From positions 1 through 64,000 of the forward strand of contig CAMXCT020001700.1 of the NCBI GenBank assembly GCA_947184155.2: a stretch of 64,000 nt of DNA, read 5' to 3'. Below are positions 1,205 through 27,395 of the stretch, in pieces; position 1 is the stretch's first letter, and every line of letters starts with the position of its first letter. The translations under genes were made by a program, and so were the position numbers. A model generated the notes under the pieces. The model ran no database searches. It was not told where the DNA came from and saw only the letters and a list, made by a program, of their open reading frames with translations. The stretch comes from Cladocopium goreaui (Eukaryota; Sar; Dinophyceae; Suessiales; Symbiodiniaceae).

Positions 1205-1515
1205 AATTCGGAGTATGGCGGTAACCGGCCGACCGGACCGGGCAACCGGCTGACCGGATCCCGGTTGACCCCTCCCCTCCCCGGTTGCCCGGTTGCCCGG
1301 TTGACCGGCTGACCGGGGCGGTTGCCCGGTTGACCGGCTGACCGGGGCGGTTGCCCGGTTGACCGGCGGAATGCCCGGTTGACCGGCTGACCGGCCGATC
1401 GGCCGACTAGGGGAAGAAATGCCCGGTTGCCCGGTTGACCGGCTGACCGGGGCGGTTGCCCGGTTGACCGGCGGAATGCCCGGTTGACCGGCTGACCGGC
1501 CGACCGGCCGACCAA
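1205..1515. repeat. GC-rich minisatellite, CCGGTTGACCGGCTGACCGG type
   Basis: About 310 bp made of 10-bp CCGGTTGACC / CCGGCTGACC variants arranged in longer blocks that repeat (compare 1290-1400 with 1420-1510). Long open frames on the minus strand through it are repeat shadows. The same word family returns at 27.5 kb and 29.0-29.3 kb. Confidence 0.8.
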
Positions 1516-2261
1516 GGGACACAAAAAATCGAAGACAAGAACACGAGACAAACAAAAGCAACAGCAACACCAGACACAGAATAGAACCAAAGGCAAGATC
1601 AAAGCACTACAAGTAGCAGCTAACCTGCCAAAAACTGAAAACGTAAGTATTGAAAGTGGCAAGGACACAAAAGCAGTTGAAGAGAAGAGGAGAGCAAAAA
1701 AGACCACGGAAGAAAAAAGAGCCTGAAGAAAAACACTGGAAAATAGAAAGCAAAACAGCAAAGAAAAAATTGACAGAAGAAAACTTTTTGGGAAAGTCCC
1801 GCTAAAAAATGTAGACCGGAACCATTAAAATGCGAAAAGGAACCATGGGAAATGCAAAGTCTAAGTAGGAAATTTGTTCCATGCAAGCACTAAACATAGA
1901 CCTCAACCAACAAGTGTAAACTTGCATCACCCAAATTGTAACGTCGTAGCGGTAAAGTTAGAACGGTCACGAGTAAAAATGTAAAGGGCAACCATGAAAA
2001 TGGCAAAATGTAAGCATGAGAATCTTTGAAAATATATCGTGCCAAAAACATTCGAACCGTGAAAACATGGACCAGGCGAGAATCGATACTCCACCTGACA
2101 CATACCTGCGTCATTATCTTCTGTGAACCTGACAAGTAACATCTCTTCTAACTCTTCGCGGTTTCGAAGCGTTGCGGAGGCAAATAAAAAACATATATAT
2201 ATATATGATTAGTGTAGACGATGCACAGGAGGACAAGAAATAGATGAAGTCCATGAAGCTG

Positions 2262-2340
2262 ATCCTCGTTTCACGTGTAAAGACGACCCCCGCTTCGCGT
2301 GTACAGACGAACCCGTTTTCGCGTGTACAGACGACCCCCC
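2262..2340. repeat. Short tandem repeat, about 25 bp x 3
   Basis: Three units of the type cgcgtgtacagacgacccc lie next to a short AT microsatellite at about 2199-2209. The flanks 1516-2260 and 2341-2999 hold no gene that I can support; 2,480-2,490 has a short GT run. Confidence 0.6.
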
Positions 2341-2999
2341 GACCTTAAGCTGCAAGGCAAGCGGCTCCGTAGCAGCAGCCCGTTGCAGCCGGATGACGAC
2401 TCGTTGCACGGCACATGGAGAGAGGTGCTGATGGGCAGCGCTGGTTGTGTGAGGCTGCGATTGGCAAAATGCCATGTGTGTGTGTGTGTTTTAGCTAAGG
2501 TAGAAGCATGTGCTTTGGACTGGACTATGTTCAAATAGGGCATGGGAAGTGCATGTCTGCATTGTGGTGAACTCAATAGATATCTAAGGGAACTGGAGTC
2601 TATGGAAACTGGGCGCTGCAAACCGAAAGCTGCAAACCAAGGCAGTGTAACAAGATTAAATACGATTTGATACGCTACAACCTAAGGCAAGTTCAGAGAC
2701 CAAATGTCGTTAGTGTGCATATGCCGTGGAGGTTCGGTACAAGACACAAACTGCATGTTAGTTTCGTGGATGATGGAAAACATGTTGAAGAAACAGAGAC
2801 GACAGTACAGATACACATTGCACGGTGTCATGGCTGAGATGGAGGACTTTGGCAATGGAGATCGAACAGGAGACATAGAGGTTGGCAAGTAGGACACATT
2901 TCGCACGAAAGTCGCTGCCGAAAATTTCATTTTGCTGCGGTTCGAACTCTGTCGGCTTTTTTTGTAAAGCGGGTGAAACAGCAGGAGGTCGGCATGGAT

Positions 3000-5900
3000 T
3001 TAGAGCTGCTGCGAAGCTGGTCGTCGAAATGGCAGCGTTTCCACTGCATCCTGGAAGTTGCGGCGCGCCATGAATTTTCGCTTCTTGGCCGCTGCCAGTT
3101 CTGCCTTTTTGATCCCCATGAGTTCGAGTTGTACATTGCGAGCGTGCAGCAATGACGCAAGGAAGAGAAGGCCACGCACTGGGGTCATGCGCCGCGCCGC
3201 CACCGCAATTTTGCGAACAAACGCAAAAGATTGTTCAGCTGCGCTGTCATTAATGTTGGGGAAGCTCGAGGCATGCGTCTGAGGCCACGTTTTGGGAAAC
3301 GGGCGAGTGCCATCAGGCTTGCAGCCGCTGTGCCCTTTGCGAAAATGGAACTTGTCGATGACAAGGCGAAGCCGGCTGAGGGTACGAGCAACTTTGCTCA
3401 TGCGGCGTCGTTTCTTGGAAGCCATGAAGCGCTGCAACGTGCACGCGCAATCGTAAAAGACCAGCGGCATGGTTTGCTGAAGTGTTCGCAGGCGAGTCTT
3501 CCGCTTGGCAGTCTTCAAATTGACATTGCGGCCGGCAGACAGAAACTCAAACAGCTCAGCCAAGAAAAAGTAGACCCCTGTTGGGGATTCGTGGGTGTAC
3601 ACGAGCTTGATGGCGCTGATGATTTGGCATTCCTTGACAGCGGCTAAAATGCCCCCACTGCGCCGTGCTGCACGAGATTTTTCCCATTGCCGGCGACACG
3701 CGTCATTTTTCTCGGACGCAGAGAACTGGACTTGATGTCCGACGCGTGGCTTTGATTGGCACTCTCGTGAAACGGGCTCCAACAAGGATTGACCATATTG
3801 CTGTTGGTAGTGCGTGGGAACCAAGGCGCTTGATAGCGAAAAGGCTTGGCCTGTCTTGGTTTGGAAAGCATACCGCCGCGAACGCGGAATACGTTTGACA
3901 GAAAGAAGCGAAACTGGATATTGAAGCTTAGCGTGGCTCACAGCAAAACTCAACGCTTTCCGCGTTCGTCGACAAAGCGGGAAAAGCGCGACAATATCTG
4001 GCGACTTGTGGCGACCAGCTTCGGTGCGAGAAAGCAGGGTTGCTGTCGTTGCGAGGAAGGAAAGGATCATTTGCAAAATGAGATCGCAACCAAAAATCGG
4101 GTCAGCATCTCGGAGGTGCACGGCGCAATATTTTCGACCAGGAATGGGAGCACTCTGGCATCCAGTCAGGCAATGGGCGTTCAGAGGCCTGCAATCCCAT
4201 ACGCCCGCATCCGTGTTGGCGCACAGTTTGGTACGAACTTTGGCATTGCCGTCCACGCCTAGAATGCCTCGTTCGCACTTGGAACACTGGTGTTGCAGGA
4301 GCCAGCGACGCTGAAATTGGTGAAGCACCTGGTCTTCGAGTCCACGGCACCAGGGTTCCATGCCATTCTTGCCGACAAAGCAATTGATGGAAGTGCGATT
4401 GTTTGTCAAAAACTTGCACACGGAGTATTGCAGCCACGAATCGCGGAGATGCTTCTCCAGCGTTCGAATTTTCATGTGGAGCTTGGGCCGCAGCACATTC
4501 ACAATGCCTCGGAAAGAACCGCCGCAATGAAGCAGAATGTCGGTGACTTGGTCCAAGAAAGCTGTCGCAAAGACGATGTTTTGCGTGATGCAGAAGTAGC
4601 GTGGGTTGTCTTGCACTAGCATCCTAGCCCGCGCACCAGTTGCATCTTTGCCCTCAACCCACGGTCCAAAATAAGAGCGACTGCAGGAGCAGCAAGAGTA
4701 GCTGAGGAGCAGGACCTGTTCCACGCAATGCAAGCCAAGCGCACAAGGCACTGCGCGAGCGGCGGCACATTTGAGATGTGCGTGGCACGTCAGACAATGT
4801 TTCACGTCTGGTTGAACGCATCTCGTGGGAATGTGCTTTGGCAAGTGGCACTCAGCTCCAAGCCAATGCGGGGCACGTCGGAGAAGCTTGCCAAGAATAA
4901 AGTCGCAGTCCCTTTCAGACAGGTGAAGATGGAAACATTGTTGTTGCAGCAATGCGTGCGCCACAGACGCTCGACATGCAGGATCCGCGTGGTGGAACGC
5001 GAGAACGAAAGCAGGCAACAAACTGAGGGACCCTGGGTACATCAACGAAGAGCACGCGTCGCTGTGGGTGGCCCCGGCTAACATCTCGGTTCCTGGAGGC
5101 GGAGGAGGAGGATTGTTAGGCGCTACCTGCTTGGCTGCCACGCGCTGGGATTTGACATTCAGAATTTTGGCACTGTGCTCGAAAGGGCGGGCGTCAGTGG
5201 CGTATTGCGTGAGCAGCTGCAAGCACTGCTCCATGCGCGGGACATCGAAATCGGGCGGCAACAGGACCTTCAAGTCGGCAGCATACAGAGTGGAGATAGA
5301 CGCGGTCACCGTTAGGCAGGATTCTGCGTACTCCGCCAAGCTGTTCGCCTGCTTGTGCTGGAAAAGATGCAGCAAATTTGAAAATGCAACTTGGGAAGTT
5401 GGGCATTGCGGAGGCTTTCTTTTGCGCAGCCTGTGAGCCGCCTTTTCGGAGGTCCTGGTCAAGGCTGCCAACTGGCAATATTTCAGAAGCAAAAACGCGT
5501 TTTGGCAATATGGCTTGGCAGCATCTCTTGGTAATGCCACGCCTGTGTCTTTTGCATGAAGTTTCTTCAGCAAGGTCCCCTGGTCAACCATGATTGTGCT
5601 TGCGCTCGTGAGAACCCAGTGCGCAGCAACGAAAGCATAGAGTTTGTTGTCCGGGGAAAGGGCTTCCCACCAAACAGTGAAAGACGGGCTAGCATCCGGC
5701 AACGAATTGGCAGGGGCAGCTTCTGCGCGAGCAGTTGGGAGAGTGTCGGTTTCGATCAAAGTGATAAGATACGGATACCTCTGCGCAGCAAGCTCGCGCA
5801 AGTCGTGCGTGTCCAAGGTGCTGACGAGGTTGGATCCCGGCGCGAGCAGTTGAGACTGCAAGGACAAATAATCGAAAATAGCTTTAGCCGGCTCCACGAC

Positions 5901-8900
5901 TTCGCGAGAAAGCTCTCTGCTCCAAGCCGTGCCTGACTGATCGGCGGCAGAACACGCACGCGCCCAAGAATGCAACAACAGAGCCAAACGCCAGGGAAGT
6001 GATTTCAGTTTGCCGGCATGGCTGAAAAGCTTTGGGTCCTGCAAGTATGATTGTTCTTGCGTGAGAACTTGGGCGTCGTAGTGCTCTCGAAAATAATCCA
6101 AGGCATCGGGGGCAAAGAAATATGGAATGAATTCCCGCGACGCATCAAAATCAGGAGCATTTGCAGTGTGAACGTTTTCGATTCTTGTGAGGACAGAAAC
6201 AAACTGGGTGAGCAATGAAGCTGGAAGGACCGGCGCACCTCGAGAGCGCGCAGCCCCCGTGGAATACACCGCAGGTTCGAGGACTGCGTCTGCTTTCTCG
6301 AGGCGGGGGCTGCTGTGAAACATGAGAAACCGACTTTGCATGCCCAAGGCACCATCTTTGGCCAGAAAGTCATGCCATTCCTCGACATGGAAAGTCATTG
6401 CTAAACAAAGGCATGTCTGGTGCATGGAGAAGCGGTTGTTATCCTTCACAACCGTCCTTTTCCAAATGGAGCCATTAAAGAGCTTGGACATAGTGGAGGC
6501 ATTAAATCCGGAACCTTCTCCGTTGGCCAGCGCTCGGAGAAGGAACCGGCCTTCATCATATAATCCAATAGCCCGGTGCCCGTTGTGCGCCATTTGCATG
6601 CCAATGGCGGGCAACGAGCCTTCGTCGGAAAACAAGGCGGGCTTGTTGTTGTGGATGGCCGCCAATGCTTTCGACAAGGAGGTCTTGCGTTTTTTTGACG
6701 AAGGCTCATCTGGCTCCGCACCGTGTGCATCCTCCTCCTCTTCTGCCAGCTGCGCTTCCTTACGAGCTTCGTCCAGCGCCTTTTGGAGCAACTCCTTTTC
6801 AAAGCCAGAGACGATGTCTGCCAAGGCTGTCATGATGCCGCTTTTGTTGGCGCCGCTGTCGAGGCATAAGCCCAACCAAAGCAGCGGCGGCACGAGGAAA
6901 AATTCGTTGATGAACAGCCTGGCTTTGGAGCACGCAGTGCCAAGAACGGGTAGAAAAAGGAGGAAAGCCCATTCAAAGGGGCAGCCCGCTTTTTGGGCAA
7001 GGTTGTCTGTCATTGAATAGACGTCCGGCAAGGCATTTTTCAGCTGCTCATGTGGGAAGGGGGCAAGGTCGGCAAGGATGTATCGAGAGATCAGCTTTGC
7101 TCTTTCTGGATCTTTGCGGTACACGTCTGCAAAAGCTCGGTTGAAGTCTTCAGGTGTACCCCGAAGCAAATTGCCCGGCGAGGCTATACAGGCATTGACT
7201 GAGTCGTCTTCCATTTGCGCAGGGCCCGACGCACCCGCTGTGCAACTGGCAGCGTCTGGCGAGGAAGTGAGTAACTCGCATGGCGTAAAAACTGTCAGCG
7301 CTTCACGGCTGAGCCGCTCGGTGAGCGTGGGTTCTGCCAGGTTCAATGGAACGGTCGCCACGCACGCTGCATGAGCCGTGGGCTGCGCCCGGCCTAGCCA
7401 AGCCTCGGCGTGACCAGTGGAACCTGGAACGCGCAAGAGCGCTTGCAAAAAATGCTTGGTCGAATGGATGAAAACGAACAGGAAACAATTTGGGTTCTTA
7501 AGCCGGAGCAATGCGGCGCCCCATTCAATTCGCTGGAAGGTGTGGAAGCTGGAGACGTGGAACAAACAACTGTTGCTGTCCAGGATCAAAAGGTCTACAG
7601 GCTCTGCAGGAGCCAACACAAGAGCAAGCTGCGAGAGCCCCCGACCACAAAGATGCTGGCCCATTTCCAGGATGCAAGGGCAAATGGACAACGCTACTGT
7701 GTCACGCAGCGTCTCCAAGTGACCTACGCATTCCAAGCGCGTAGTTTTGAAGCAATGGAAAAGGTTTTCCGTCGGAGGTAGAAGCGTGGGAGCCAATCCA
7801 AAAACGAGAAGGTGCAGATATCCGACTGCGGGACAAGAGCTCAACGCTGGGACAACAATGGGGCGCAATGTCATCACCACGGGAAAGAACCAAGCATTGG
7901 TAGAGTTGAAAACAATCGTTGGAAAATCCACAACACTGCCTTCATACGGCTCGCAAAAACCATCCGACAAGAGAAGCAGATCACCGGCCGGAAGGATCCA
8001 AAGCAGTAGCGGCGCACACGAAAGGTGGGAGTGGACGTCTTGAATGAAGGAGAAAGGAAGCTCAGAAGAAAAGCGTTTTGGATGGGAGAAGAAGCAATGC
8101 CACGCAGACGAAGTTAAAGCCAGCTGCGCGCAAGTCTTTGCCAAGCAAGCAGAACGCAAGCCACACGCGTTCTGCAACGCCTGAAAGAACGAGGAAGCTC
8201 TGCAGTTGGAAGAAAGAAAAGCCAAAAACGCGTCTGCCCAGGCATCAGAACTAGAATCAGAAGCATCGTCACGAAGGAGGGCCGCTGACAGTGAAATCGC
8301 CGGAACCTCCCCAACAGTAACAGTTGGACTGTGAGGAGCACGCAGGCGCGGAGAACCGGGGTAACTGGCGCCGAGCAATGTCGAAGCGGGCGTTCGATTC
8401 GGGGAAAGCAGCCGGCTTGGCGAAGACTCAAAATGGAAATGATCGTCGCAAAATACCACTGGAGCGGAAGCAGCGGCCGAGGTGACAGAAACAGATCCAG
8501 TGGAGTCGGAATCCACTACGTCGCACCACAAAGGGTTGCCTGCCGCGCTGGTTGCGCCGGCTGAAAATTGGGCCACACTACCGCCATCCAGCTTAACCCA
8601 CTTCATGCAGCCTGGTTTGTGGGTGTACGGCCGCGGCGCAGGATACTTGCGCGCATGTTCCATGACCCACGCATAGGCTTTCTTGTAGTTCACCGACGAT
8701 TGGTCAGTAATGCAATGCTTGTTTGCGTTGTCGGGTGCCCAAATGTACTGCGAAGGAGGGCCCGTGGAAACCCAAACGCCAGGTGAAGGTTGCTCACCGA
8801 TGAGAAAGCATTCGGCCAGGGTGACTTCCCCCACCAATTGTTTGGAACCAGCTTGTGCGATCGCAATCCTTCCCCGCTTCGTGGTCGGCTCCCCGCGAAC

Positions 8901-11636
8901 CTCCCACGTTTTTTCGCCTGAAAGAATGAGCTCGGCCCACTTGCGTTTGATGATCAAAGCCCGTTTGGGCATGGCCACGTCTTGGCGGTGAGCCTTGGTG
9001 GAACGCGGGTCGGTTGGGCGGCGGCTGCCGGCTTTGGATCCACTCGCCTTGCCACCGCCGGTCAATGTCAAGGGACCAATGTGCAACACATGTGGCCCGA
9101 CGATACGCAGCAGAGGCTGCAGCTGCAAGGCTTCGCGACGAGCTTGAGTCAAGACTGGCTGAATAATTGTGGTGTCCCGGTCCGGGCGGGGCAAAGGTGC
9201 GGCGCCCCTTAAGCCTATGAAGCCTTTCAGCTCATTCGACTCTGTGGCCGGCCAAGGCTGCGGACAAAGCGAGACCAAGTCCCCACGGGAATCAAACAGC
9301 GCAACACTTGCAGGAGAGCATACAAAGGTGAAAGTTTGACATCGCGAAAAATCGATGGGGCGCAGCGCGTGCATTTGCATTCGCTCGACTTCTGTGCACC
9401 AGCGCGCGCCGTTGCAACGCCCATCTCGGATCTCCAGCTGAAGCCCGCGTTGGGAAAATGGGGCCTGCAGGCTGAAGAGGTGTGGCCAAGCAACTGCTGC
9501 AGGGTGAGGTCCCGTGCTCATGCCTATTGTCAAGTAGAGCTGCGACTGCCCGAGCAACACGGGCGACAACTCGATGACGGCCGTGGAAACTGAAGGGGAA
9601 ATGCGCGAAGCCATCCGAACGACGTGGCGAAAGTCAACAGAGTGGAAAGTTTGCCATGTTCGATGAAGAGGAGGGAAGGAGCGCGGGTTGAAACACCCCA
9701 AAAGGAACTTCTTGTGGATCGGAAAACCTTGGGACAGCAGCGCTTCAATGCATTTGTTCAAACACAGCCTCGTGCAACAGCAAGGGGAAACAGACGCGAC
9801 CAGTGCATTGTGCTGACTCGCATCGATCAGAAAGGCACAAGCGGCTCTGTGCGTTTGTAGGAACGTCACAAGATCGTTAAGAGCACACAAACACGCCAAA
9901 ACTGTGTGCTGACAAGTCTGCGGCAGTCGATCCCAGAAGCCCCCGCATAGGTCCAGGCACGGCAGCACGCGAGCGAGGCCAACCCCTTGATGCAAGCGCG
10001 CCTGTGTCACCCGCACCGGCCGCCGGAAGCCGTTTGACGGAGCGGGCGCCAAATTGGACAGGGGAGCCGATGGAGAATGCAACGCCACGAAACAGTTTAA
10101 CGGCGTGTTCTTTGGCAAACCGACGCAGCGCCACTGCAGCAGCACAGAACCGTCATTGCCAAACAGGCAGCAGATTTGGTCTTGCTGGCGACATGCAAAA
10201 GTTAACTCTTGTGGAGCGATGCCGGCCAACGACAGATCACATGAGTTGGCTTGGAAACTGTCATGTGTGAGGAAAGAGGCCAAGGAGCAGCACTGGCCGG
10301 AATTGATGTTGAGCTTCGCAGCAGCCACATTGCGGGCGTCGGGGGGGAAGGTGCTCAAGTGAAGCAAACCCTGCAAAGAAGAAAAGCCGGAAGCAAAAAC
10401 CCCTAGAAGCAATTCCAAGTCCGGGCACTCCGCCAAACCAGCACAGCGTGCAAAAGATAAATTCAAAGCGAACACCGGCGGTGAAGGAGAAGCAGAACTC
10501 GTGAACCAGAAATTGGCGCCATGAGGCTCAGCATGGTAGTGATGCCAGGACCACAATGGATTGCGGGGCCGCGGCGCGAGCGCGAAAGTCAAATGGGCAA
10601 CAGGGGAGTAAGGACATGAATGGGGCACTGCCTGGACAACCGCTCGAAGACAGAGGTTCGCACAGAGGCGCTGGCATGTGCATGGTGCGAGGCGCAAGTT
10701 TCCGGGCCAAGTATGCGGTGATTGGACTAGCTCGCAAAATTCATTGGAGACGCGCATTGTGTAGCAGAAAGTTTGCGGAGAGAGAGCGTAGTGCAGAATT
10801 TGGACGAGGATCTCAGGCTCCAGCGCCTCCAATATGTTGCTGCTTTCTGCGCTTTCGCGCAAGATTACACCCCCGGACAACAAAGGATAACAGTCTCGTT
10901 GGGAAGACAACGCGCCGCAAGTTGCAAACAATGGAAAACGACATAAGCCCAACGCCCGGCAAATATGGAATAAATCCATTTGGAAAAGAACCTGCCAGCT
11001 GTCGGGCCAAGCAGCTTGCATCAATGTAGCAACGACAGCAACCGGCGCACCTGTGTCCACAGCAACGGTGAGAGGGGTCTCCAGGCGGAGGTTGCGGCTC
11101 GCGCCTGGCGCTGATGCGGCAAGCAGCAGCCGAACACAGGCAGCATCCCCATAAACTGCAGCGACATGGAGGGCCGAATCTTGTTCCACGTCAGTTGCAT
11201 CCACCGGGGCATTGGCGTTGATTAAAAGATCAACAGCTGCTGGCATGCTTTGCCTGCAAGCCAAATGCAACGGGGTGCCGCCGAAATCATACCGGCAAGC
11301 GACATCAGCGCGCGCCAGGAGGAGAGCGCGGACCATATCTACATTCTTCTTGTTCAGGGCTGCATACAGAGGGTGCAGGGTGCCTTCTGCAGGGTGATTG
11401 GGGCACTGCCCATCAAACAACAGCTCCTGAGCGCAAGCAACGTCATTCAAGTCAATGGCTCGGAGGAGCTCGTCAGCTAAGTCTTTGCGCGTTGGGATCC
11501 GCAGAAGCTTGACGGACACAAGCGGCGCAAGCTGCGGGCCAGTCGGGGTTGGACAGACCACGTCGGAGGACGCAAACAACCGCAGGTGGAAGGGCGACGC
11601 CTGCAAAACATTAGCAATGACTTTGATGAGAACCAT
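3000..11636 (-). CDS. Giant ANK / F-box-like / ASCH / DUF3987-like / CxC / KDZ-transposase-like protein
   Basis: One uninterrupted frame of 2,878 codons; the stop is at 3000-3002. The frame stays open to 12035, but that end lacks an ATG at its edge and the first protein-like segment begins at the ATG at 11636-11634. A good splice acceptor (ttttgcag) at 11608-11601 is an alternative 5' boundary. Approximate residues: ankyrin repeats 53-209 (GGTPLHLACRQ, DSALHVAAVYGDAACVRLLL); F-box-like 267-317 (LEPEILVQILHYALSP); ASCH 889-1012 (KRKWAELILSGEKTWEVRG); DUF3987-like P-loop near 1593 (DSGANKSG), Walker-B-like DE near 1692 (GLYDEGRF), GMQSRF near 1765; CxC5-like cluster from 2280; CxC6-like 2460-2504 (VDG, then CxxxC and YCAVH); KDZ-like C-terminus 2726-2830 (FYDCACTL, DKFHFRKGHSGC, NINDSAAEQSF). 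CxC clusters are known companions of KDZ transposases, so I infer a mobile-element protein. The stretches 320-885 and 1015-1470 look like beta-rich repeats and are unidentified. Only the C-terminal part of a KDZ domain is visible, so catalytic competence is unknown. Confidence 0.7.
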   Translation of the reverse strand: MVLIKVIANVLQASPFHLRLFASSDVVCPTPTGPQLAPLVSVKLLRIPTRKDLADELLRAIDLNDVACAQELLFDGQCPNHPAEGTLHPLYAALNKKNVDMVRALLLARADVACRYDFGGTPLHLACRQSMPAAVDLLINANAPVDATDVEQDSALHVAAVYGDAACVRLLLAASAPGASRNLRLETPLTVAVDTGAPVAVVATLMQAAWPDSWQVLFQMDLFHICRALGLCRFPLFATCGALSSQRDCYPLLSGGVILRESAESSNILEALEPEILVQILHYALSPQTFCYTMRVSNEFCELVQSPHTWPGNLRLAPCTCQRLCANLCLRAVVQAVPHSCPYSPVAHLTFALAPRPRNPLWSWHHYHAEPHGANFWFTSSASPSPPVFALNLSFARCAGLAECPDLELLLGVFASGFSSLQGLLHLSTFPPDARNVAAAKLNINSGQCCSLASFLTHDSFQANSCDLSLAGIAPQELTFACRQQDQICCLFGNDGSVLLQWRCVGLPKNTPLNCFVALHSPSAPLSNLAPAPSNGFRRPVRVTQARLHQGVGLARVLPCLDLCGGFWDRLPQTCQHTVLACLCALNDLVTFLQTHRAACAFLIDASQHNALVASVSPCCCTRLCLNKCIEALLSQGFPIHKKFLLGCFNPRSFPPLHRTWQTFHSVDFRHVVRMASRISPSVSTAVIELSPVLLGQSQLYLTIGMSTGPHPAAVAWPHLFSLQAPFSQRGLQLEIRDGRCNGARWCTEVERMQMHALRPIDFSRCQTFTFVCSPASVALFDSRGDLVSLCPQPWPATESNELKGFIGLRGAAPLPRPDRDTTIIQPVLTQARREALQLQPLLRIVGPHVLHIGPLTLTGGGKASGSKAGSRRPTDPRSTKAHRQDVAMPKRALIIKRKWAELILSGEKTWEVRGEPTTKRGRIAIAQAGSKQLVGEVTLAECFLIGEQPSPGVWVSTGPPSQYIWAPDNANKHCITDQSSVNYKKAYAWVMEHARKYPAPRPYTHKPGCMKWVKLDGGSVAQFSAGATSAAGNPLWCDVVDSDSTGSVSVTSAAASAPVVFCDDHFHFESSPSRLLSPNRTPASTLLGASYPGSPRLRAPHSPTVTVGEVPAISLSAALLRDDASDSSSDAWADAFLAFLSSNCRASSFFQALQNACGLRSACLAKTCAQLALTSSAWHCFFSHPKRFSSELPFSFIQDVHSHLSCAPLLLWILPAGDLLLLSDGFCEPYEGSVVDFPTIVFNSTNAWFFPVVMTLRPIVVPALSSCPAVGYLHLLVFGLAPTLLPPTENLFHCFKTTRLECVGHLETLRDTVALSICPCILEMGQHLCGRGLSQLALVLAPAEPVDLLILDSNSCLFHVSSFHTFQRIEWGAALLRLKNPNCFLFVFIHSTKHFLQALLRVPGSTGHAEAWLGRAQPTAHAACVATVPLNLAEPTLTERLSREALTVFTPCELLTSSPDAASCTAGASGPAQMEDDSVNACIASPGNLLRGTPEDFNRAFADVYRKDPERAKLISRYILADLAPFPHEQLKNALPDVYSMTDNLAQKAGCPFEWAFLLFLPVLGTACSKARLFINEFFLVPPLLWLGLCLDSGANKSGIMTALADIVSGFEKELLQKALDEARKEAQLAEEEEDAHGAEPDEPSSKKRKTSLSKALAAIHNNKPALFSDEGSLPAIGMQMAHNGHRAIGLYDEGRFLLRALANGEGSGFNASTMSKLFNGSIWKRTVVKDNNRFSMHQTCLCLAMTFHVEEWHDFLAKDGALGMQSRFLMFHSSPRLEKADAVLEPAVYSTGAARSRGAPVLPASLLTQFVSVLTRIENVHTANAPDFDASREFIPYFFAPDALDYFREHYDAQVLTQEQSYLQDPKLFSHAGKLKSLPWRLALLLHSWARACSAADQSGTAWSRELSREVVEPAKAIFDYLSLQSQLLAPGSNLVSTLDTHDLRELAAQRYPYLITLIETDTLPTARAEAAPANSLPDASPSFTVWWEALSPDNKLYAFVAAHWVLTSASTIMVDQGTLLKKLHAKDTGVALPRDAAKPYCQNAFLLLKYCQLAALTRTSEKAAHRLRKRKPPQCPTSQVAFSNLLHLFQHKQANSLAEYAESCLTVTASISTLYAADLKVLLPPDFDVPRMEQCLQLLTQYATDARPFEHSAKILNVKSQRVAAKQVAPNNPPPPPPGTEMLAGATHSDACSSLMYPGSLSLLPAFVLAFHHADPACRASVAHALLQQQCFHLHLSERDCDFILGKLLRRAPHWLGAECHLPKHIPTRCVQPDVKHCLTCHAHLKCAAARAVPCALGLHCVEQVLLLSYSCCSCSRSYFGPWVEGKDATGARARMLVQDNPRYFCITQNIVFATAFLDQVTDILLHCGGSFRGIVNVLRPKLHMKIRTLEKHLRDSWLQYSVCKFLTNNRTSINCFVGKNGMEPWCRGLEDQVLHQFQRRWLLQHQCSKCERGILGVDGNAKVRTKLCANTDAGVWDCRPLNAHCLTGCQSAPIPGRKYCAVHLRDADPIFGCDLILQMILSFLATTATLLSRTEAGRHKSPDIVALFPLCRRTRKALSFAVSHAKLQYPVSLLSVKRIPRSRRYAFQTKTGQAFSLSSALVPTHYQQQYGQSLLEPVSRECQSKPRVGHQVQFSASEKNDACRRQWEKSRAARRSGGILAAVKECQIISAIKLVYTHESPTGVYFFLAELFEFLSAGRNVNLKTAKRKTRLRTLQQTMPLVFYDCACTLQRFMASKKRRRMSKVARTLSRLRLVIDKFHFRKGHSGCKPDGTRPFPKTWPQTHASSFPNINDSAAEQSFAFVRKIAVAARRMTPVRGLLFLASLLHARNVQLELMGIKKAELAAAKKRKFMARRNFQDAVETLPFRRPASQQL

Positions 11637-12572
11637 GTGGAGCGATCTGTTCCAGAGGTCCGAAACTGGCAGCGTCACAGTGCAGAGGTGAGCGCCGGAC
11701 AGGAGAGAGCGCAGCGTGAAAGTGACAAGTTGCTGCAAGACTCCAGGACCGTTCTGCGGAAGCAAAACGCAAAGGTCTATCCTCAAAGTTGGTCGGCACC
11801 ATGCAAGCAAAAGAGCCGCCGGCGAAATCCAAACTCGATGGCTGCATGGCACGGGCCGCAGGCAAGGCAGAAGATCGCCCAAGCAACCCCGCTCGCGACT
11901 TTTCAAAAGGAGTAGAGTGAAGCAGAACGAAATGGGGGGCACGGATGCTAAGCAGTCCCAGAACGCAAACAGATGCGGAAGAAATGTGAGACGCCAGTTG
12001 CACATCGCCATCAGGCTGAAAATGGATGAAGTCAAGGCCGGCGTGAAGTTTGCGAACTGCGATGCCGTCCGGAAACCAATCGCGCAGCTGGCTGAGCAAC
12101 AAAATGTGGCGGTGCGACAGCCAAGCTGCGCGGGAGCAGGGGTTGGCAGGGTCCATGGCCATCACAAAAGCCATGAGCTCATGAGGCTGGAAGGTGTGCT
12201 GCGCGGCCAGCATCAACGGAAGGAGTCGCTGCATGACATCCGTCCAAGAAATTCATAAGAATTTCGCAAGAGCTCTGTATCCGCACCGTCCATCGCCCTG
12301 CACATTGAATGCGCGCCAACCCGAAGGAACGGGAGCGTGAATTCGGACATCCGGCTCAAGCACTTTTGCTTTCGGGGGAAGAAAGGACGAGCGGCGAAAG
12401 GATTGGTTGATTGCGCTGTGGTGCAAGCGGCAGAAGCGGTGTCCTGCGAATGCAGGGTGTGGCTGCCCGCACTGTAGATCGCGAAGCTGAAGGAAATCCT
12501 GGCGCGCACACTTCGGACAAAAAAATCTAGACAAGAATCCGAACCAGTCGTGTGAATGGCCGTCACTCGCAC
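11611..12572 (-). pseudogene. OTU-like cysteine protease frame with internal TGA
   Basis: After a strong acceptor (tttgtttgcttttag, ending 12573) the frame reads a zinc-ribbon-like stretch (FFCPKCARQDF ... HRFCRLHH) and then NVQGDGRCGYRALAKFL, the Asp-Gly-x-Cys motif that starts OTU proteases. A TGA at 12255-12253 follows immediately, and the same frame then stays open to 11611 with protein-like sequence ending in IRAPHFVLLH, a fair candidate for the OTU catalytic histidine. So one continuous OTU domain appears to be broken by a single stop codon. The end overlaps the start of the giant ankyrin/transposase frame by 26 bases in another frame. It may be a decayed 5' module of that element, a separate gene, or a sequence error at the TGA. 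The fold is inferred from the motifs only. Confidence 0.5.
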
Positions 12573-12797
12573 CTAAAAGCAAACAAACAGCAACAAAAGG
12601 GAAATTCACAACGTGCATTGAACAACTGTGTTGAAAGCATGAGGGTATACAGTGTAAAGGATATATGCAACAAAAATGAACGTGCAACGACCCGTACACT
12701 GCGCGAAGCGCGAAAGTGTTAGGCAAACGACATATTTCGTATTTGCATGAAACCAGAGACGGACGTAGCAAAAACAGAAATAGTTGAAGCATCAAAC

Positions 12798-13142
12798 CGT
12801 GCGATGTCCTTGGAGTCTTCCAACGAGAAGTAGGAAGCAACACTTTGGAAATCATCCGACGCCTGCGCGAGATGGAATGCCACAAAAAACAGAGTGAGAA
12901 CGTGCTCCCAGCTAACTGTGTTAAAAGAATGACTGTATAAACAGAAAAGGGTATACAGGCAAGGAAACGGGAAATACAATGATCCGAACACTGCGTGAAG
13001 CGCGAAAACGAGACAGTGTCAATCAAAACACAGGTTTGACATTTGAATAAAACCAAAAATAGTTGCAGCATCAAAACCGCGCGATCTCCTCTGAGTCTTC
13101 CACCGAGAAGTAGGAAGCAACACTTTGGAAATCATCCGAGTC
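12798..13142 (-). repeat. Duplicated 65-nt exon-like block, period 280 bp
   Basis: Two near-identical 65-nt blocks at 12798-12862 and 13078-13142 each follow a ctcgcgcag acceptor and end at cg|gttt, a possible donor. They encode ASDDFQSVASYFSLEDSKD and DSDDFQSVASYFSVEDSEE. The surrounding sequence is also duplicated with more divergence, so the whole is a tandem duplication of about 280 bp. Whether the blocks are exons of the downstream OTU-like gene is inference; phases do not join cleanly by eye. Confidence 0.5.
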
Positions 13143-13559
13143 CTGCGCGAGATGCAATGCAAAAAAAAGATTGAGAACGTGCCCCGGCGAACTGTGTCAA
13201 AAGAATGACGGTATAAACAGAAAAGGCCATGTGAAACAGCAAAAGACCCCGGACGTGAAGTGTGACATGTGAAAATTGCAGCATGAGAAGGGCACACAAG
13301 CTGAAACCTGTTCGGCATGCTTGCGCCTCTGCACAAGAAGCCGCTGCCGTGGGACTTGCTGCAAGTTCGGGGCCAAATTCCTGACGTGTAAAGGGAAGGG
13401 CCATGGAAGTGGAAGATGCAGAGGCCGCATTCGACGCAAGAAGGAGTAGCGTTCTAGTATATAGGTGAAGATCTGAAGCAAGGACACGTAAATAGAACTG
13501 GATATGGAAGGTGGCATCCTTAGGTTAGCCAGCTTTGAACGAATTGCATTGAAGCCTGA

Positions 13560-13850
13560 CCCCCCCCCGTCCTCGTCATGAAGATCAGCCCACGCGGTGC
13601 GGCCGCTCCAGACAAACAAGTTGCTTAAGACCAGAATCTCGTCTTCGACCTGACATGCAGTGCAAAAGTGTGAGGTGTCAGCTTGCATGCACATGCACAT
13701 CGCCTCAGCGAAGGTACTGAGCTTGAAAAAGCGCGCCATCCTGGCGAGAAAGCCGAGCTGTCCCGAGCGGAGATGAGAAGCCCAAGGTGGCAAGCGAGCA
13801 AAGTAAACACCAGCTGAAAGGTCTGAAGTCCGGGCCTTGAACAAGGGAGA
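13560..13850 (-). CDS. Candidate exon upstream of the OTU-like frame
   Basis: The minus strand is open and protein-like here (GFLARMARFFKLSTFAEAM, HFCTACQVEDEILVLSN, WADLHDEDGGGSGFNAIRSK), unlike the low-complexity shadows around it. I do not recognise the family. It sits 0.4 kb upstream of the duplicated exon-like blocks on the same strand and could be a 5' exon of the same gene. Exact ends are not resolved; 13151-13560 and 13850-14200 otherwise show nothing definite. Confidence 0.3.
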
Positions 13851-14254
13851 AAAGGGAGCGGCGTAGTGACAGACACAAGTTGCGATTTTGAGCGCTTAAG
13901 CTGCACGCGAGAATGCAATCAGTATGGAAAGGCTCGGCCAGAAAAGCATGGAAAGAGAGGCTGCCCCACTTTGAAGTTTAAAACGCGCTGAAGCGAGTGA
14001 GCAATTCACTTGAGAGTTTGAAGAGCTGCGTGTGATTGAATTATTCGTGCTTGCAAATTAAAAGAAAACTGTTGCAAGCGGCTGTTGTTGCAGAAACTTT
14101 TGCATAGCACAGACGTTGTACATGGAGGATGGCAACCCAACGAGCAAGTGATAGGAGTCATACCTGCAAAATGGCGAAGCACAGTAAAACTTGAAATTTG
14201 GATAGATTGTTCAGAGCATGTTCGAACATTGGGTGGTCAGTAAATAGATTTGGT

Positions 14255-14640
14255 AGAAGCGAAATGCAGCAGGGCATGCATGTCAATTTCAAAGACCTAT
14301 GTGACGAAAATGCGGGTGGAGAAATTGATGTTCAAAGGTTTGGAGGTGCAGATCTTCATGGAGTGGGGTGGTGCAGTAGGGGGGTGGGGTGGAGAAGTGA
14401 ATGGGGGGAATTAACGTTCAAGTTGCGTGTCAGGTGCATGGCACGGTACGTGGAAGAGGTCTTACAGATGCAGTGGGGGAGGTTTCGGTGTTAATATGGA
14501 GCGGCTTTTACATTCAAGTTACGTGGAAGGTGAGTGGCACGTTACGGTCCAGATGTCTTACGCTGATGCAGTGGGTGTGGTGGGATGGAGTGGCATTAAC
14601 GTTCAAGTGACGTCTAAGGTGCATGGCACGTTACGTTGAA
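14255..14640. repeat. Diverged tandem repeat, about 100 bp
   Basis: Units share ttcaagttacgtg, ggtgcatggcacg and gatgcagtggg. They resemble the 33.2-33.5 kb repeat in their alternation of GT-rich words with taacgtt. The open frames on the plus strand are repetitive and not credible genes. Confidence 0.5.
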
Positions 14641-14904
14641 GAATCTTTATATTTTGTTCGGTTACATGCAAGAAGCGATTATACCATAGAATGTAAATGT
14701 TATTCAAGAACGTCGCACAGAAGTCACGAATGCAGGACTTGTAAAAAGGGTTCCCAAAGATCTCATGATTTTTGCAAATGGAACCAGAGGCTTTCCAAGC
14801 TCATGCTCGTTACATTTCCCCAACAAATCTCTCATATTGGCACAAGTGAAACACAAGAAACTTTTTTTCATGAAGCGATATGTATGCAGACATGAGTTTA
14901 CATG

Positions 14905-16145
14905 AAGCCACGGGTTGGCGTCAAGCCGCAGGGTGGCAATGAAGCCACGGGTGGCAGTCAAGCCGCAGGGTGGCAATGAAGCCGCGGGGTGGCAATGAAG
15001 CCGCGAAGTGGCAATAAAGCCACGGGGTGGCAATGAAACCGCGGGGTGGCAATGAGGCCGCAAGGTGGGAATCAAGCTGCAAGGTGGCAATGAAGGCGCG
15101 GGGTGGCAATCAAGCCCTCAGGTGGCAATGAAGCCACAGGTGGCAATGAAGCCACGGGTGGCAGTCAAGCCGCAGGGTGGCAATGAAGCCGCGGGGTAGC
15201 AATCAAGCCGAGGGGTGGCAATGAAGCCGCGGGGTGGCAATGAAACCGTAGGGTGGTGGGGGTGGCAATGAAGCCGCGGGGTGGCAACGAAGCCGCGGGG
15301 TGGCAATGAAGCCGCAGGGTGGTGGGGGTGGCAATGAAGCCGCGGGGTGGCAAGGAAGCCGCGGAGTGGCAATGAAGCCGCGGGTGGCAATGAAGCCGCA
15401 GGGTGGCAATGAAGCCGCGGGGTAGCAATCAAGCCGCGGGGTGGCAAGGAAGCCGCGGGTGGCAGTCAAGCCGCGGGGTGGCAATGAAGCCGCGGGGTGG
15501 CAACGAAGCCGCGGGGTGGCAATGAAGCCGCATGGTGGGGGTGGCAATGAAGCCGCGGGGTGGCAATCAAGCCGAGGGGTGGCAACGAAGCCGCGGGGTG
15601 GCAATGAAACCGCAGGGTGGTGGGGGTGGCAATGAAGCCGCGGGGTGGCAACGAAGCCGCGGGGTAGCAATGAAGCCGCAGGGTGGTGGGGGGGTGGCAA
15701 TGAAGCCGCGGGGTGGCAATGAAGCCGAGGGGTGGCAATGAAGCCGCGGGTGGCAATGAAGCCGCAGGGTGGCAATGAAGCCGCGGGGTAGCAATCAAGC
15801 CGCGGGGTGGCAAGGAAGCCGCGGGTGGCAGTCAAGCCGCAGGGTGGCAATGAAGCCGCGGGGTGGCAACGAAGCCGCGGGGTGGCAATGAAGCCGCATG
15901 GTGGGGGTGGCAATGAAGCCGCGGGGTGGCAATCAAGCCGAGGGGTGGCAATGAAGCCGCAGGGGGGTGGGGGGGTGGCAATGAAGCCGCGGGGTGGCAA
16001 TGAAGCCGAGGGGTGGCAATGAAGCCGCGGGTGGCAATGAAGCCGCAGGGTGGCAATGAAACCGCGGGTGGCAGTCAAGCCGCAGGGTGGCAATGAAGCC
16101 GCGGGTGGCAGTCAAGCTACAGGGTGGATGAGCCGCAGGGTGGCA
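14905..16145. repeat. 1.2-kb minisatellite, 18-19-bp unit, 366-bp higher-order period
   Basis: About 65 copies of ggcaatgaagccgcggggt. Variant units recur in the same order: the ggtagcaatcaagcc variant at 15421 returns at 15787 and the gccgcatggtgggg variant at 15528 returns at 15894, both 366 bp apart. Six-frame open frames here (up to 296 aa, PPRGFIAT-type) are artefacts of a repeat without stops. Confidence 0.9.
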
Positions 16146-17690
16146 GCATTGCTGCAAGTTAAGCGAGCAATAAAGAATAACACACTGAACTGTCATGAAC
16201 ACGCTGATACACTTTGCGTTTTGGTTCATTTAAAAGAAATCGATGTTAAATCTACTTTTGCTATCATTTTACGTACAGAATGACGTACACAAACAGAAAG
16301 ACTAACGAAAAGAAACAAAGCAGGAGCAATGAAGGCAAAATCGTTTATTCACCCCGCTCCGCGTGGGGTGGCCGCCCACACCGCAGGTTATTTCGGTTCG
16401 TACACGCTGTGGTTGTGGTGGTGGTGGTGGTTGTTGTGGTTGTTGTGGTTGTCGTCGTCGTCGTGGTCGTCGGGCCCATGCTGAGCCATCTTGCGCCCAG
16501 CGTAAGCTTATGTCATGCCCAGGAATGTACATTCCGATCAAAACGTCGCGACGTGCAACGGGCCGCAAACAAGGCTTCAGCCCCCAGACGTACGACGACC
16601 AAGAAAACAAAGAACTCTTCGCTACGCATTCGGGGAGGAAGAAAATATATTACGAAAAAATAAAATCAAGGGTTCGGTTCTATCTGGTTTGAACCATTTA
16701 TACTGGGATATGACTAACCAACGTTTACCGACCGTCAAAACATCATTTCCCAGTGCTTCCAAAGGATAGGTTTACTAAGTCCGTTATCACAAAGGACAGG
16801 TTTGACTAAAAGGCTACAATTTACCCAAATGACAGGAGATTGTGGTAAACATCAAGAACCATATTTTCACGGGCTTTTCACGGCCTTTTCACTGACTTTT
16901 CACGGCCTTTTCACATGTATCATAATAAGTTGTAATTTCATCAAAATTGCCCAGTTTCACAAGGGCTAAGTTTAACCTCGGCGTTGTGACTGGGTGAGTT
17001 TTTGGTGTCCTTTGAAGTTCTGGGTTTCATAGCAATATGACGATGGTATATTGCGTTCCTTCTGTCATTTAACCTTGCTTTCAGACAACACCATTCAGGA
17101 ATAGCATACACTGTGTGAGAGGATATACAATATAAAGAAATAAGTCTCAATATACAAAAAAAAAGCGGCGCGCAAAACGACTTAGTACTCGGAAAAGGAC
17201 GTGGCCAAAGTAGGTGGTCCCCTATCGGTTGTGAACTTTGGCACTCCCATGCTAGGTGACAAAATAGGATGCCGGTAAGTGGATGTTCCGGCATCGCTCG
17301 TGAAAGGTTTGCACACATATTTGAACATCCCAAGTCTAGCACCTATACTACTTGAGCCCTCCACTAATTTTGACGGTTACTTATATGTATTTGTGGCCAA
17401 TAGTTGGCTGTCCGGCATTACTCCATTTCCATTCTCCCACTGGTAACATGAACAAACCGCACAAAACGGTTTTGCAACCAGCTCGACGTGGCCAGGAGTC
17501 CGTTCGAAGTGCATCTCACTTGAACAGTGGCTGGTCATTCAGCCGAATCAATTATTCAAAAGGGACGCTCCACGGACACAAAGTTTGAATGTCGGGCTGG
17601 TGGAAGTCAAAACGTAGGACGTAAATTGTAAACTTATATAATTCACCAATACAAGTTCAGGGGTCAGAATTGCAACACCATAACGGGTTT
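16146..17690. other. No gene recognised; GTG/GTT run at 16411-16475
   Basis: A trinucleotide run rich in gtggtg, gttgtg and gtcgtc lies at about 16411-16475. At 16862-16910 the motif cttttcac recurs several times. Nothing else coding is supported. Confidence 0.5.
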
Positions 17691-18195
17691 CACACTTGTT
17701 CAGAACAATCTTATCGAATTAGGATGATGAATGGATCTTACGTGCAAAAACAATTCAGATTCACCTGCCGGGAAAACCCTTTGCGACCAGAAATGAGGAA
17801 TTCTCAGATTGCGACAACAGTGCAAAAGCGAAAAGAAACTGATTGTTTGACAACGGCAAGGTGGTTCTTGGGTTAGCCACGTCCCATTGCAGAAAAGTAG
17901 GTTTGACAAAAATGCAGGTATGTCGGGATGATCAGTCCCGATATCCTCCCAACTCATGAGTAGCTTCGTTGGCAGTGGACTCATGAGTGGGCCACTGCCC
18001 CCTGCTTATATACTTAATTAAAAAACAAAAACAAAAAACCTAAACCTAAAAAGCCTACCTAAAGAAATGAGACCTGAGCCTGGGATGAACATGAGTATAT
18101 GAGGTGAAGAACCTAAAATATGTATATATATATATATGATGAAACCTTTACAAAAGTAGAAGTTTTACATCTATTCAGATGTTACACACACACAC
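17691..18195. repeat. Dispersed repeat, copy 1 (about 0.5 kb)
   Basis: Nearly identical to 19216-19727, from cacacttgttcagaac to the CA run after catctattcagatg. Both carry a 94-codon minus-strand frame (MSPLPTKLLMSWEDIGTD) with only a few differences, but no family resemblance, so I treat it as part of the repeat. The 3' end has AT microsatellites. Possibly a non-autonomous transposon; no terminal repeats were identified. Confidence 0.8.
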
Positions 18196-18212
18196 CCTCC
18201 CGCAGGAGGGTG
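18193..18212 (-). other. Hairpin with UGCG tetraloop
   Basis: CACCCTCC (193-200) pairs with GGAGGGTG (205-212); on the minus strand the loop reads TGCG closed by C-G, a member of the UNCG tetraloop class. Confidence 0.6.
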
Positions 18213-18340
18213 GACAATTTAAAACCTCAAAACCTAGACCTAACAAGCCTAACTAAAGAAATGAGACCTGAGCCTGGAATGAACATGAGTAGATGAGATG
18301 AGAGGCCTAGCAAAATATAAATATATGATGAAACAACTCA

Positions 18341-18364
18341 CCCACCCTCCCGAAGGAGGGTGGG
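18341..18364 (-). other. Hairpin with UUCG tetraloop, 10-bp perfect stem
   Basis: CCCACCCTCC (341-350) pairs perfectly with GGAGGGTGGG (355-364); in minus-strand RNA the loop is C(UUCG)G, the most stable tetraloop known. It sits beside a diverged repeat of the text around 18,030-18,180 (gagacctgagcctgg). Confidence 0.65.
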
Positions 18365-19215
18365 AGGATAAGGTCCGGACAATAAGATGAAAATGAAGAG
18401 AAAGGGAAATGAAGATGAGATGAAAATGACAATGAGATGAAAGTTACTTAACCAGGACACGAAGAGGGGGAACGCAAACGCAGAGGGAAGGAGAAAACAC
18501 CAACACATGAAAACCTAGCCCACCACGGGCAAACCCTGAAAGGGGAAGGAAAAAGAAAACGGAGGCAGACGGAAACGGAACCAGACCCGCGGAGGGGGGG
18601 GAAGACGGAAGCGCCTGAACCAACCTACACCAGCGAAACCTACACCTACCTGGGCACGCGAAGGGCCAAACCTACCTGGAGAGAGGAGCACGCAGAAACA
18701 CATGAAATAGGGGATTCAGGTGTAAAAGTTCAACAGTTTCAACAAATGATGCATTCATCAAATCATGCAAAGTCGTGATTAGGCTCAAGGCCCTCGGTGT
18801 TCAAGTCAACCCTTGGACGGCTTACGTGGTGAACCCTTGAATTACATGCACAAATTTCCTCCGTACCAAAGACCATCAAAAGGAAAAATCACCAAACCTG
18901 CAAGGATGTCCTGATGCCTTAAGTCCTCATGTAAAGGGGCTGCGGTCAGTCTCTTGAGAAAGGGAGATTGTTGGCGCAGCTTCAGGCTACAAACCCTTGC
19001 ACAACCGAAAAAATGAAGCCAGTCTCAGCGGCCAGTTGTTTAACACATCGACCGACCAAAGGTGAGAAGCTGAAAGGTGAACGGCTTCTTCACTTTACTT
19101 AAACGAATTACTAGGTTGAAAACTGTAAATTCGGAGGTCGAGTCTTGGCGTCACATTCTGCTTAGAAAAGCATTCCCCGAAGAGTTCATGACATCGTGTC
19201 GAAAGCGTCATGAAG
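18365..19215. other. Intergenic, purine-rich, no gene seen
   Basis: 18,380-18,620 is purine-rich with repeated gaaatgaagatgag words. No coding signal or RNA gene was recognised. Confidence 0.4.
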
Positions 19216-19727
19216 CACACACTTGTTCAGAACAATCTTATCGAATTAGGATGATGAATGCATCTTACGTGCAAAAACAATTCAGATTCACCTGACAGGA
19301 AAACCCTTTGCGACCAGAAATGAGGAATTCTAAGATTGCGACAACAGTGCAAAAGCGAAAAGAAACTGATTGTTTGACAACGGCAAGGTGGTTCTTGGGT
19401 TAGCCACGTCCCATTGCAGAAAAGTAAGTTTGACAAAAATGCAGGTACGTCGGGATGATCAGTCCCGATATCCTCCCAACTCATGAGTAGCTTCGTTGGC
19501 AGTGGACTCATGAGTGGGCCACTGCCCCCTGCTTATATACTTAATTAAAAAACAAAAACAAAAAACCTAAACCTAAAAAGCCTACCTAAAGAAATGAGAC
19601 CTGAGCCTGGGATGAACATGAGTATATGAGGTGAAGAACCTAAAATATGTATATATATATATGATGATGATGAAACCTTTATAAAAGTAGAAGTTTTACA
19701 TCTATTCAGATGTTACACACACACACA
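19216..19727. repeat. Dispersed repeat, copy 2
   Basis: Second copy of 17691-18195, offset 1,525 bp, a few percent divergent. It lacks the hairpins that follow copy 1; sequence similarity ends in the CA run. Confidence 0.8.
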
Positions 19728-19784
19728 TGCCACCCAGTAGTACATTCCGGCAAAACATAGGCCCCGCTGCGATGCTGCAATGGG

Positions 19785-19875
19785 GCCGTGGACGCTGCGA
19801 CGCTGCAACGCTGCGACGTTGCGACGCTGCGATGCTTCAACGCTTCGACGCTGCGACGCTGCCGAGCCAGAGCGA
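19785..19875. repeat. Short tandem repeat, GACGCTGC units
   Basis: About ten imperfect 8-10-bp units of the form gacgctgcga / aacgctgcga. Confidence 0.75.
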
Positions 19876-19889
19876 CGCTGTGACACTGT

Positions 19890-20520
19890 CCTTTCAAGAT
19901 CCGTTGAAGCTAAAATCCCATTCAATGTATGGGTCAGAGGGGGTGGCGGATTTGAATCCTTTTGAAGATCAGTTGAAGTTAATATCCCATCCGACTTATT
20001 AGTCAGAGGGGGTTGCGGATTTCATCCCTTATGCAGAAAAGTTGTGAAGTGAATATCCCAGTGAACAGATTGGTCAGAGGGTGTGGCGGTTTTGATCCCT
20101 CCTGGAAATCAGTTGAAGTTGATATCCCATGCAACGTATTGGTCAGAGGGGGTGGCGAATTTGAGACCCTAAGAGAAGTTGTGAAGTTGATATCCCAGTC
20201 AACGTATTGGTCAGAAGGGGTTGCGGATTTGATCCCTTAAAAAGAAAACTTGTGAAGCCAATATCCCATTCAACGTATTGGTCAGACTGGGTGGCGGATT
20301 TGATCCCTTTTGAAGATCAGTTGAAGTTACTATCCCATCCCACGTCTTGGTCAGAGGGGGTGGCGGGTTTGATCCCTTAGGAAGAAAAGTTGTGAAGTTA
20401 AAAACCTATGCAACTTATTGGACAGAGGGGTTGGCGCATTTGATTTCTTACTAAGACAAGCTTTTGAAGTTAAAATCCCAGTCAACGTATTGTTCAGACG
20501 GGGTGGCGGATTTGATCCCT
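19890..20520. repeat. Satellite of about 62 bp, about ten diverged units
   Basis: Units share tgaagttaatatccca, caacgtattggtcagag and ggtggcggatttgatccc. Divergence between units is 10-25% by eye, so the array is old compared with the minisatellite at 15 kb. Confidence 0.8.
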
Positions 20521-20692
20521 TCTCGGCTTCTCGGCTTGTCCGGTGGCTTCTCGGCTTCTCGGCTTGTTGGCTTCTCGGCTTGCCTTGTGGCTTCTCGGCT
20601 TCTCGGCTTCTCGGCTTCTCGGCTTGTCCGGTGGCTTCTCGGCTTCTCGGCTTGTTGGCTTCTCGGCTTGCCTTGTGGCTTCTCGGCTTCTC
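20520..20692. repeat. Minisatellite ggcttctc, with about 88-bp higher-order unit
   Basis: Nine-base units of ggcttctcg are grouped into a longer block containing cttgtccggtgg and cttgccttgtgg that occurs twice. Predicted peptides through it (LLGFSASRL type) are repeat shadows. Confidence 0.8.
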
Positions 20693-24875: not shown

Positions 24876-25085
24876 CTCGGGAAAGGGAGACATAGAAGGA
24901 AACGGAAAGTAACAGAGAAAGAGAGAGGGATAGAAACAGTGGAGGAGCGAGAAACACAGGGCAATGCAGCACCAGGAAAAGATGAGAAAGCAAAGTCCAT
25001 CAAGACATGTCACTTCAAGCGGGCAAACATTCAAAGGTTGTGCCAACGAGAAAATCTGTAAAGATTGTGTTAAGATGGAACAGCA

Positions 25086-27363: not shown

Positions 27364-27395
<32 letters not shown>

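Follow-up and report, generated by a model that had tools for sequence, protein, structure and literature searches.

The 64,000-nucleotide stretch analysed here (the window; contig CAMXCT020001700.1 of Cladocopium goreaui) carries a giant protein-coding frame on the minus strand, lying within a 28-kb element that is very probably a transposon (Table 1). The frame is open over 3053 codons, which confirms the single intronless frame given in a preliminary description of this DNA, while the longest frame in 50 shuffles of the same region was 385 codons. Codon bias was above zero in 30 of 30 consecutive 100-codon windows, which gives weak support, the table having been trained on codons 227-3053 of the same frame. 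On the whole protein, Pfam profiles for ankyrin repeats (Ank_2, 4.4e-22), DUF3987 (1.5e-21) and ASCH (1.8e-4) each scored above their cut-offs. A second F-box, a SPRY domain or any other domain was sought between approximately residues 490 and 1040, where Pfam gave no match and only weak internal similarity was seen. The C-terminal end resembles the transposases of Zisupton/Dileera/Kyakuja (KDZ) elements, and an OTU-like (deubiquitinase-like) part stands at the N-terminal side. In the window copy this part is split from the remainder by an in-frame stop plus a small deletion near position 11736, and in five of sixteen copies found in the genome the two are continuous in one frame of 3379-3380 codons. 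The OTU-like motif had been described as lying upstream of the frame, which is true of broken copies such as that in the window; elsewhere it belongs to the same frame. Over roughly the first 140 of the 3053 codons the native reading frame is probably a different one, a stretch that fills the first codon-bias window and extends into the second. A 46-nt intron joining the OTU-like part to the giant frame was considered and rejected, since other copies read straight through, with a slightly different length there.

Copies were sought in the 1.17-Gb assembly in which the window is contig C1700, and the match counts given here are lower bounds. The C-terminal 767 residues found at least 48 matches, including 14 full-length places at 99-100% identity, the window counted in; in C3043 and C1280 this protein is divided into two pieces, and with these two the copies number sixteen altogether. 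Beyond these, the query matched relatives at 41-63% and then at 28-33%; within the window itself no paralogue of the protein was found. The 3' end of the repeated unit was determined from 16 downstream flanks. The common sequence ends at ...GGTTACCGCCATACTC in 15 of the 16 copies and is followed by 13 distinct 8-mers, and the sixteenth flank (L022) departs from the common sequence before the 3' end. A DNA search placed the 5' boundary at window position 29351/29352, within one base, at nine places besides the window (C2286, C5923, C143 at two places, C735, C2965, C3223, C4832 and C1851). The 5' tip, CAGAAGGGCGGTACC, was identical in 10 of the 12 stretches read; the other two, both from C1851, did not contain the tip. 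The tips pair as an imperfect 14-bp inverted repeat at 11 of 14 positions, a level reached by 21 of 200,000 random tip pairs. Upstream, three copies are collinear with the window to approximately 17.2 kb, and two of these to approximately 25.9 and 26.7 kb. A scan of the window alone for terminal inverted repeats with a 7-9-bp duplication, with ends within 1-3000 and 12160-26000, yielded none; with the 5' end out of its range at 29351, differing outer tip bases and unmatched flanks, it was bound to fail.

For eight of ten 5' flanks, an identical 3' flank was found among the 13 distinct ones at a length of exactly 8 nt, with zero matches at 6, 7, 9 or 10 nt, and 0.002 matches of 8 nt were expected among the 130 pairs. 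Of the two unmatched 5' flanks, one is that of the window and C1851, and the other is a tandem junction, in which the bases ahead of the element belong to the 3' end of a further copy. One insertion has a dispersed repeat as its target; joining its two flanks gives a sequence that is matched by uninterrupted copies of that repeat (L026, 94% over 67 nt; L021, 88% over 69 nt), the matches extending 11 nt of known sequence past the insertion point. Taken together, the many sites occupied by nearly identical copies, the exact ends, the imperfect inverted tips and the 8-bp duplications argue for a giant KDZ-like DNA transposon, and we consider it highly probable that this 28-kb element is a DNA transposon that was active recently and encodes a KDZ-like DDE transposase. 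The large mobile element with a KDZ-like end proposed in the preliminary description is thus borne out, and the search for copies and flanks that it suggested recovered many copies, inverted tips and target duplications. A single-copy locus is excluded by multiple copies with defined ends and 8-bp target duplications. That the copies are instead a host gene family, spread by segmental duplication or retroposition, is very improbable: the large frame is intact and some flanks are shared (the 3' flank among the window, C735 and C1280; the window's 5' flank with C1851, at 99%), but this account is opposed by the base-exact ends, the 13 distinct 3' 8-mers, the 8-bp duplications and the inverted tips. 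Non-coding minisatellites far upstream also travel with the gene, and no spliced-leader relic was found in the window with the leader sequence used.

Table 1. Positions of the element and of the parts of its gene in the window
Feature	Position	Strand	Evidence or remark
Whole transposon	1211..29351	-	28,141 bp; gene runs right to left
5' terminal inverted repeat AGAAGGGCGGTACC	29337..29350	-	outermost base C at 29351
3' terminal inverted repeat AGTATGGCGGTAAC	1212..1225	+	outermost base G at 1211
Open frame	3000..12161	-	3053 codons plus stop
OTU-like part	11842..12585	-	motifs; one frame with the remainder in other copies
In-frame stop	12253..12255	-	interrupts the OTU-like part in the window copy
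Ankyrin repeats, aa 227-388	10998..11483	-	Pfam Ank_2 4.4e-22; extent by PDB matches
F-box-like segment	10707..10817	-	Pfam, below cut-off
ASCH domain, complete, within aa 1067-1194	8580..8963	-	Pfam and motif
DUF3987, predicted helicase-type ATPase	5847..6983	-	Pfam 1.5e-21
CxC5-like cysteine cluster	4497..4829	-	mapped over from paralogue L051
Second cysteine cluster and first catalytic Asp candidate	4116..4286	-	VDGNAK, D2637 at 4251-4253
KDZ-like catalytic end	3225..3560	-	candidate second Asp, YDCAC, 3450-3452; candidate Glu, AAEQ, 3234-3236
Minisatellite inside element, upstream of gene	14902..16145	.	common to other copies

The KDZ profile (PF18758) matched the window protein on C-terminal pieces only, at 2.2e-4 on a 401-aa piece and 1.1e-4 on a 316-aa piece; an 876-aa piece, other pieces and the whole protein (the last searched up to E = 1) gave no KDZ match. 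The match covers residues 2868-2962 and ends short of the candidate Glu, and those in the relatives L049 and L050 extend beyond it. Weak KDZ matches were also obtained in five of seven relatives scanned (L049, 0.0038; L050, 0.0035; L052, 4.6e-5; C5810, 6.5e-4; C66, 7.8e-4), each below the cut-off. The acidic residues of VDGNAK, YDCAC and AAEQ, candidates for the D-D-E triad, are all retained in the paralogue L051 at 47-56% identity, judging by sequence, and L053 retains YDCAC and AAEQ. A PDB search with the KDZ-like end found no match. For the cysteine clusters, CxC5 and CxC6 profiles found nothing on pieces of the window protein up to E = 10; CxC5 matched L051 at 0.0018, below the cut-off, and L055 at 0.11, and CxC4 matched L052 at 0.03. 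The CxC6 profile was never matched, and the second cluster may be CxC6-like. Most cysteines of the clusters are conserved between the window and the paralogue, and the CxxC count is not above that of shuffles (3 against a mean of 2.0, with 652 of 2000 shuffles reaching 3). From the domain list of the preliminary description, ankyrin, ASCH and DUF3987 therefore stand above their cut-offs, the F-box and KDZ assignments fall below them, CxC5 is seen below the cut-off in a paralogue only, and CxC6 is not recovered. Two side observations concern the relatives. L052 (C5931:359200-364200) holds a small KDZ-like frame of 473 aa with an adjoining cysteine-cluster frame; the genome contains at least 13 matches to it with nearly the same score. 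The KDZ-side frame of L051 (L051:112-1473) has a weak Pfam DUF5710 match, 5.2e-4, below the cut-off, and L049 has one at 0.046.

The KDZ scores below the cut-off would also suit a transposon moved by another protein, with the giant protein as its cargo. The stop in the OTU-like part at 4 of 13 places is in keeping with this, as some copies may move in trans, and so would be a spliced gene lying somewhere between 13 and 29 kb. Against it, the sole non-repeat frame of at least 180 aa between 13.1 and 29 kb is that at 13197-13895, which has no Pfam match, and the C-terminal end ranks with the best-conserved parts of the relatives, at up to 56-63%, though DUF3987 reaches 67-70%. We therefore judge the cargo account improbable, and prefer a transposase of the element's own at the C-terminal end.

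The DUF3987 part, the best-kept stretch in relatives, was matched by its profile over positions 2-360 of 364, and a PHROG DNA helicase profile matches it at 2.1e-8; the acidic motif FSDEGS lies within 6615-6638. PMC5862659 describes this domain in mobile elements of prokaryotes, where it is predicted to act as a helicase in their replication. The plasmid collection gave no match to the DUF3987 part, and phages gave two weak ones (E 0.3 and 0.7); the protein pieces tried against viral and prokaryotic collections found no relatives in scans that are sensitive to close relatives only. Three relatives, L049-L051, align with window residues 1135-3046 or part of them, at 29% for aa 1135-1381 of L049 and otherwise at 44-59%. 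On C5810 and C66, a DUF3987-like frame comes after a KDZ-like one on the same strand, the reverse of the order in the window, and the pairing may therefore have arisen more than once.

Several observations weigh against a KDZ-like transposon of this composition. All KDZ and CxC profile scores lie below their cut-offs, those for KDZ being 21.4 and 22.5 bits on the 401- and 316-aa pieces where 26.6 is required, and neither L051 nor L053 gave a KDZ match. The P-loop of the DUF3987 part is non-canonical (SGANKSG at 6837-6857), a variant that L051 has as well. L049-L051, the relatives at 44-59%, show nothing homologous to the OTU, ankyrin or F-box part, although only approximately 4.2 kb precedes the match in L049 and L051 and the upstream sequence of L050 is largely N. 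The DUF3987 matches of C5810 and C66 are weak (Pfam 0.075 and 0.17; 26-27% similarity to the window), and the two count as one case because they belong to one family, 92% identical over 797 bp. Finally, the 8-bp duplications are seen across contigs only, no pair having both ends on one contig, and none of the four copies with two non-tandem ends on one contig (window, C5923, C735 and C3779) has matching flanks. Some pairs look like plain contig breaks, one example being C2965, which ends 7.8 kb into the element and pairs with C2130. In others, the window, C5923 and C735 among them, the two ends are mismatched, a sign either of contigs wrongly joined or of copies having exchanged sequence. The window's 5' flank ends GATATGAC, and its 3' flank begins CGAATTTG, which matches the 5' flank of C5923. 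Positions 1-1210 and 29352-64000 of the window are probably not true genomic neighbours.

The N-terminal module was examined by motif and by profile. One GDG.C..RA motif occurs in the six frames of the window, where 60 shuffles gave a mean of 0.0. The OTU-like part holds GDGRCGYRA (Cys codon 12283-12285) and APHFVLL (His codon 11932-11934), 117 residues apart, and has at least nine diverged matches in the genome, two of which were read. At 41% identity C5733 retains both the Cys block GDGRCGYRALA and the His block HFVL, and C256 has GDSRC in place of GDGRC, with the Cys retained and the match ending ahead of the His. It is quite possible, though we hold it the less likely account, that the OTU-like and F-box-like parts are divergent segments that are neither ubiquitin enzymes nor adaptors. 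No Pfam match to the OTU profile was obtained up to E = 10 in the window or in the unbroken version in L031, the one unbroken version scanned, and the PDB gave none. The F-box-like segment scored 0.0069 on the whole protein and, alone, 22.4 bits against a cut-off of 24.3. The stop also favours divergence; with the OTU-like part as query, one TGA was counted in 4 of 13 element places, its codon position being read in the window only. Movement in trans may have spread such copies, or the stretch with the TGA may be shared through mis-joining of contigs. The blocks retained in C5733 at 41% identity weigh against the divergent-segment account, as do the reported precedents of an F-box in a platyfish Zisupton and of OTU domains in Ginger1 and Helitrons. 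The suggestion in the preliminary description that the ubiquitin-type domains come from the host and protect the transposase or send silencing proteins to degradation stays conjectural.

For ASCH, the profile match is accompanied by a GxKxxExR motif. The domain is 37-43% identical to five plasmid and phage ASCH proteins, and a profile built from these and the window sequence finds human ASC-1 and TTHA0113, which from its name we take to be a Thermus protein, in the PDB. In the genome the ASCH module has at least 81 matches, 15 in this element, most of the others being frames of 120-220 aa; on C557, ASCH matches lie a few kilobases ahead of DUF3987 matches. Outside this genome, the collections searched gave matches to proteins of bacterial plasmids and phages. 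With the module so widespread in the genome, there is no support for the view that this element took ASCH from its host, and a freshly captured RNA-binding domain, as the preliminary description had it, is unlikely. Several sets of genome ASCH matches share identical scores, at 31-44% identity to the window ASCH, and perhaps other mobile elements carry ASCH modules.

Starship, Teratorn and Maverick are giant eukaryotic transposons of tens of kilobases, and their recombinases differ from that of this element. Helitrons insert without target duplication and have a CTRR 3' end; identity with them was rejected for the present element, which has 8-bp duplications and a CTC end. Closest are the KDZ transposons, which share the KDZ-like transposase end with cysteine clusters (with scores below the cut-offs here). 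With Zisupton and Dileera the element has terminal inverted repeats in common, and 8 bp is also the target duplication length reported for these two (PMC12730594). One platyfish Zisupton isoform is reported to carry an F-box (PMC12062965), and Pristionchus pacificus Zisupton proteins are described as multi-exonic and reaching 1400 aa (PMC9297572). In contrast, the window element is 28 kb long, with DUF3987 and ASCH fused in one frame of up to 3380 codons. Ginger1 and Helitron proteins are reported to bear OTU (PMC2836005), and OTU-like or other deubiquitinase domains are the likeness to Ginger1 and to OTU- or VTD-bearing Helitrons (PMC2836005, PMC9741609). The transposases there are a Gypsy-type integrase or a Rep/helicase, whereas here an N-terminal OTU-like part, recognised by motif and conservation, belongs to a KDZ-like protein. 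In the prokaryotic elements described in PMC5862659, DUF3987 occurs with primases, and here with a DDE-type transposase in a eukaryote-type genome. Among the papers listed by the literature searches made, some of them broad, this domain combination did not appear. The searches gave no paper linking DUF3987 and dinoflagellates and none on KDZ transposases in dinoflagellates, and a query for DUF3987 with eukaryotic transposons gave one Bacteroidetes paper. The earlier statement that no such element is known agrees with these searches as regards the combination, and each half has its reported precedent.

As to mechanism, the C-terminal module of cysteine clusters and RNase-H-type D-D-E residues would bind the tips and catalyse strand transfer, and the fused DUF3987 ATPase may open DNA or travel along it, enabling moves of so long an element. 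Cut-and-paste movement and copying are both allowed. A head-to-tail junction, CATACTC|CAGAAGGG, is found in C143 (C143:168565), with similar ones at C2286:16336 and C1851:80840, and these would fit either insertion beside an end or copying. Fragments of the 5' part of the element recur on many contigs, suggesting internally deleted derivatives. The N-terminal ankyrin, F-box-like, OTU-like and ASCH part may be an accessory module acting on host ubiquitin signalling or on nucleic acid. More tentatively, and we are rather doubtful of it, the pairing of KDZ-like transposases with DUF3987, fused or as a separate frame in reversed order, may define a distinct class of giant transposons, to which the OTU/F-box module was added to control the element's own or host ubiquitination.

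Other features of the window were noted. Upstream of the OTU-like part, tandem units of approximately 280 bp occupy 12617-13226, and two of them hold a 65-nt exon-like piece (SDDFQSVASYFS) between splice-like signals. The 5' half of the element contains direct-repeat pairs (17691-18195 with 19218-19727; 20685-21109 with 21444-21856), and the copy in L015 (C3779) has an insertion of approximately 8 kb in its 3' non-coding part. Outside the element, 47457-57028 is a tandem array in which a phosphoglycerate kinase gene with a leader is repeated five times; Pfam, run on the first unit only, gave PGK at 1.4e-142, and the second unit is divided over two frames. This array and the genome size are in keeping with a dinoflagellate.

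The element described here is very probably a DNA transposon of 28 kb, very young and exactly delimited, in a type of genome that is poorly described for mobile DNA, and the results warn that contigs of the assembly are probably mis-joined inside such repeats. Because its transposase carries a helicase-type ATPase known from prokaryotic mobile elements, it becomes testable how a unit of this length is moved by a DDE transposase. After Ginger, Helitron and Zisupton, the element would be a further transposon lineage with ubiquitin-type domains, and its copies are young enough for comparison.

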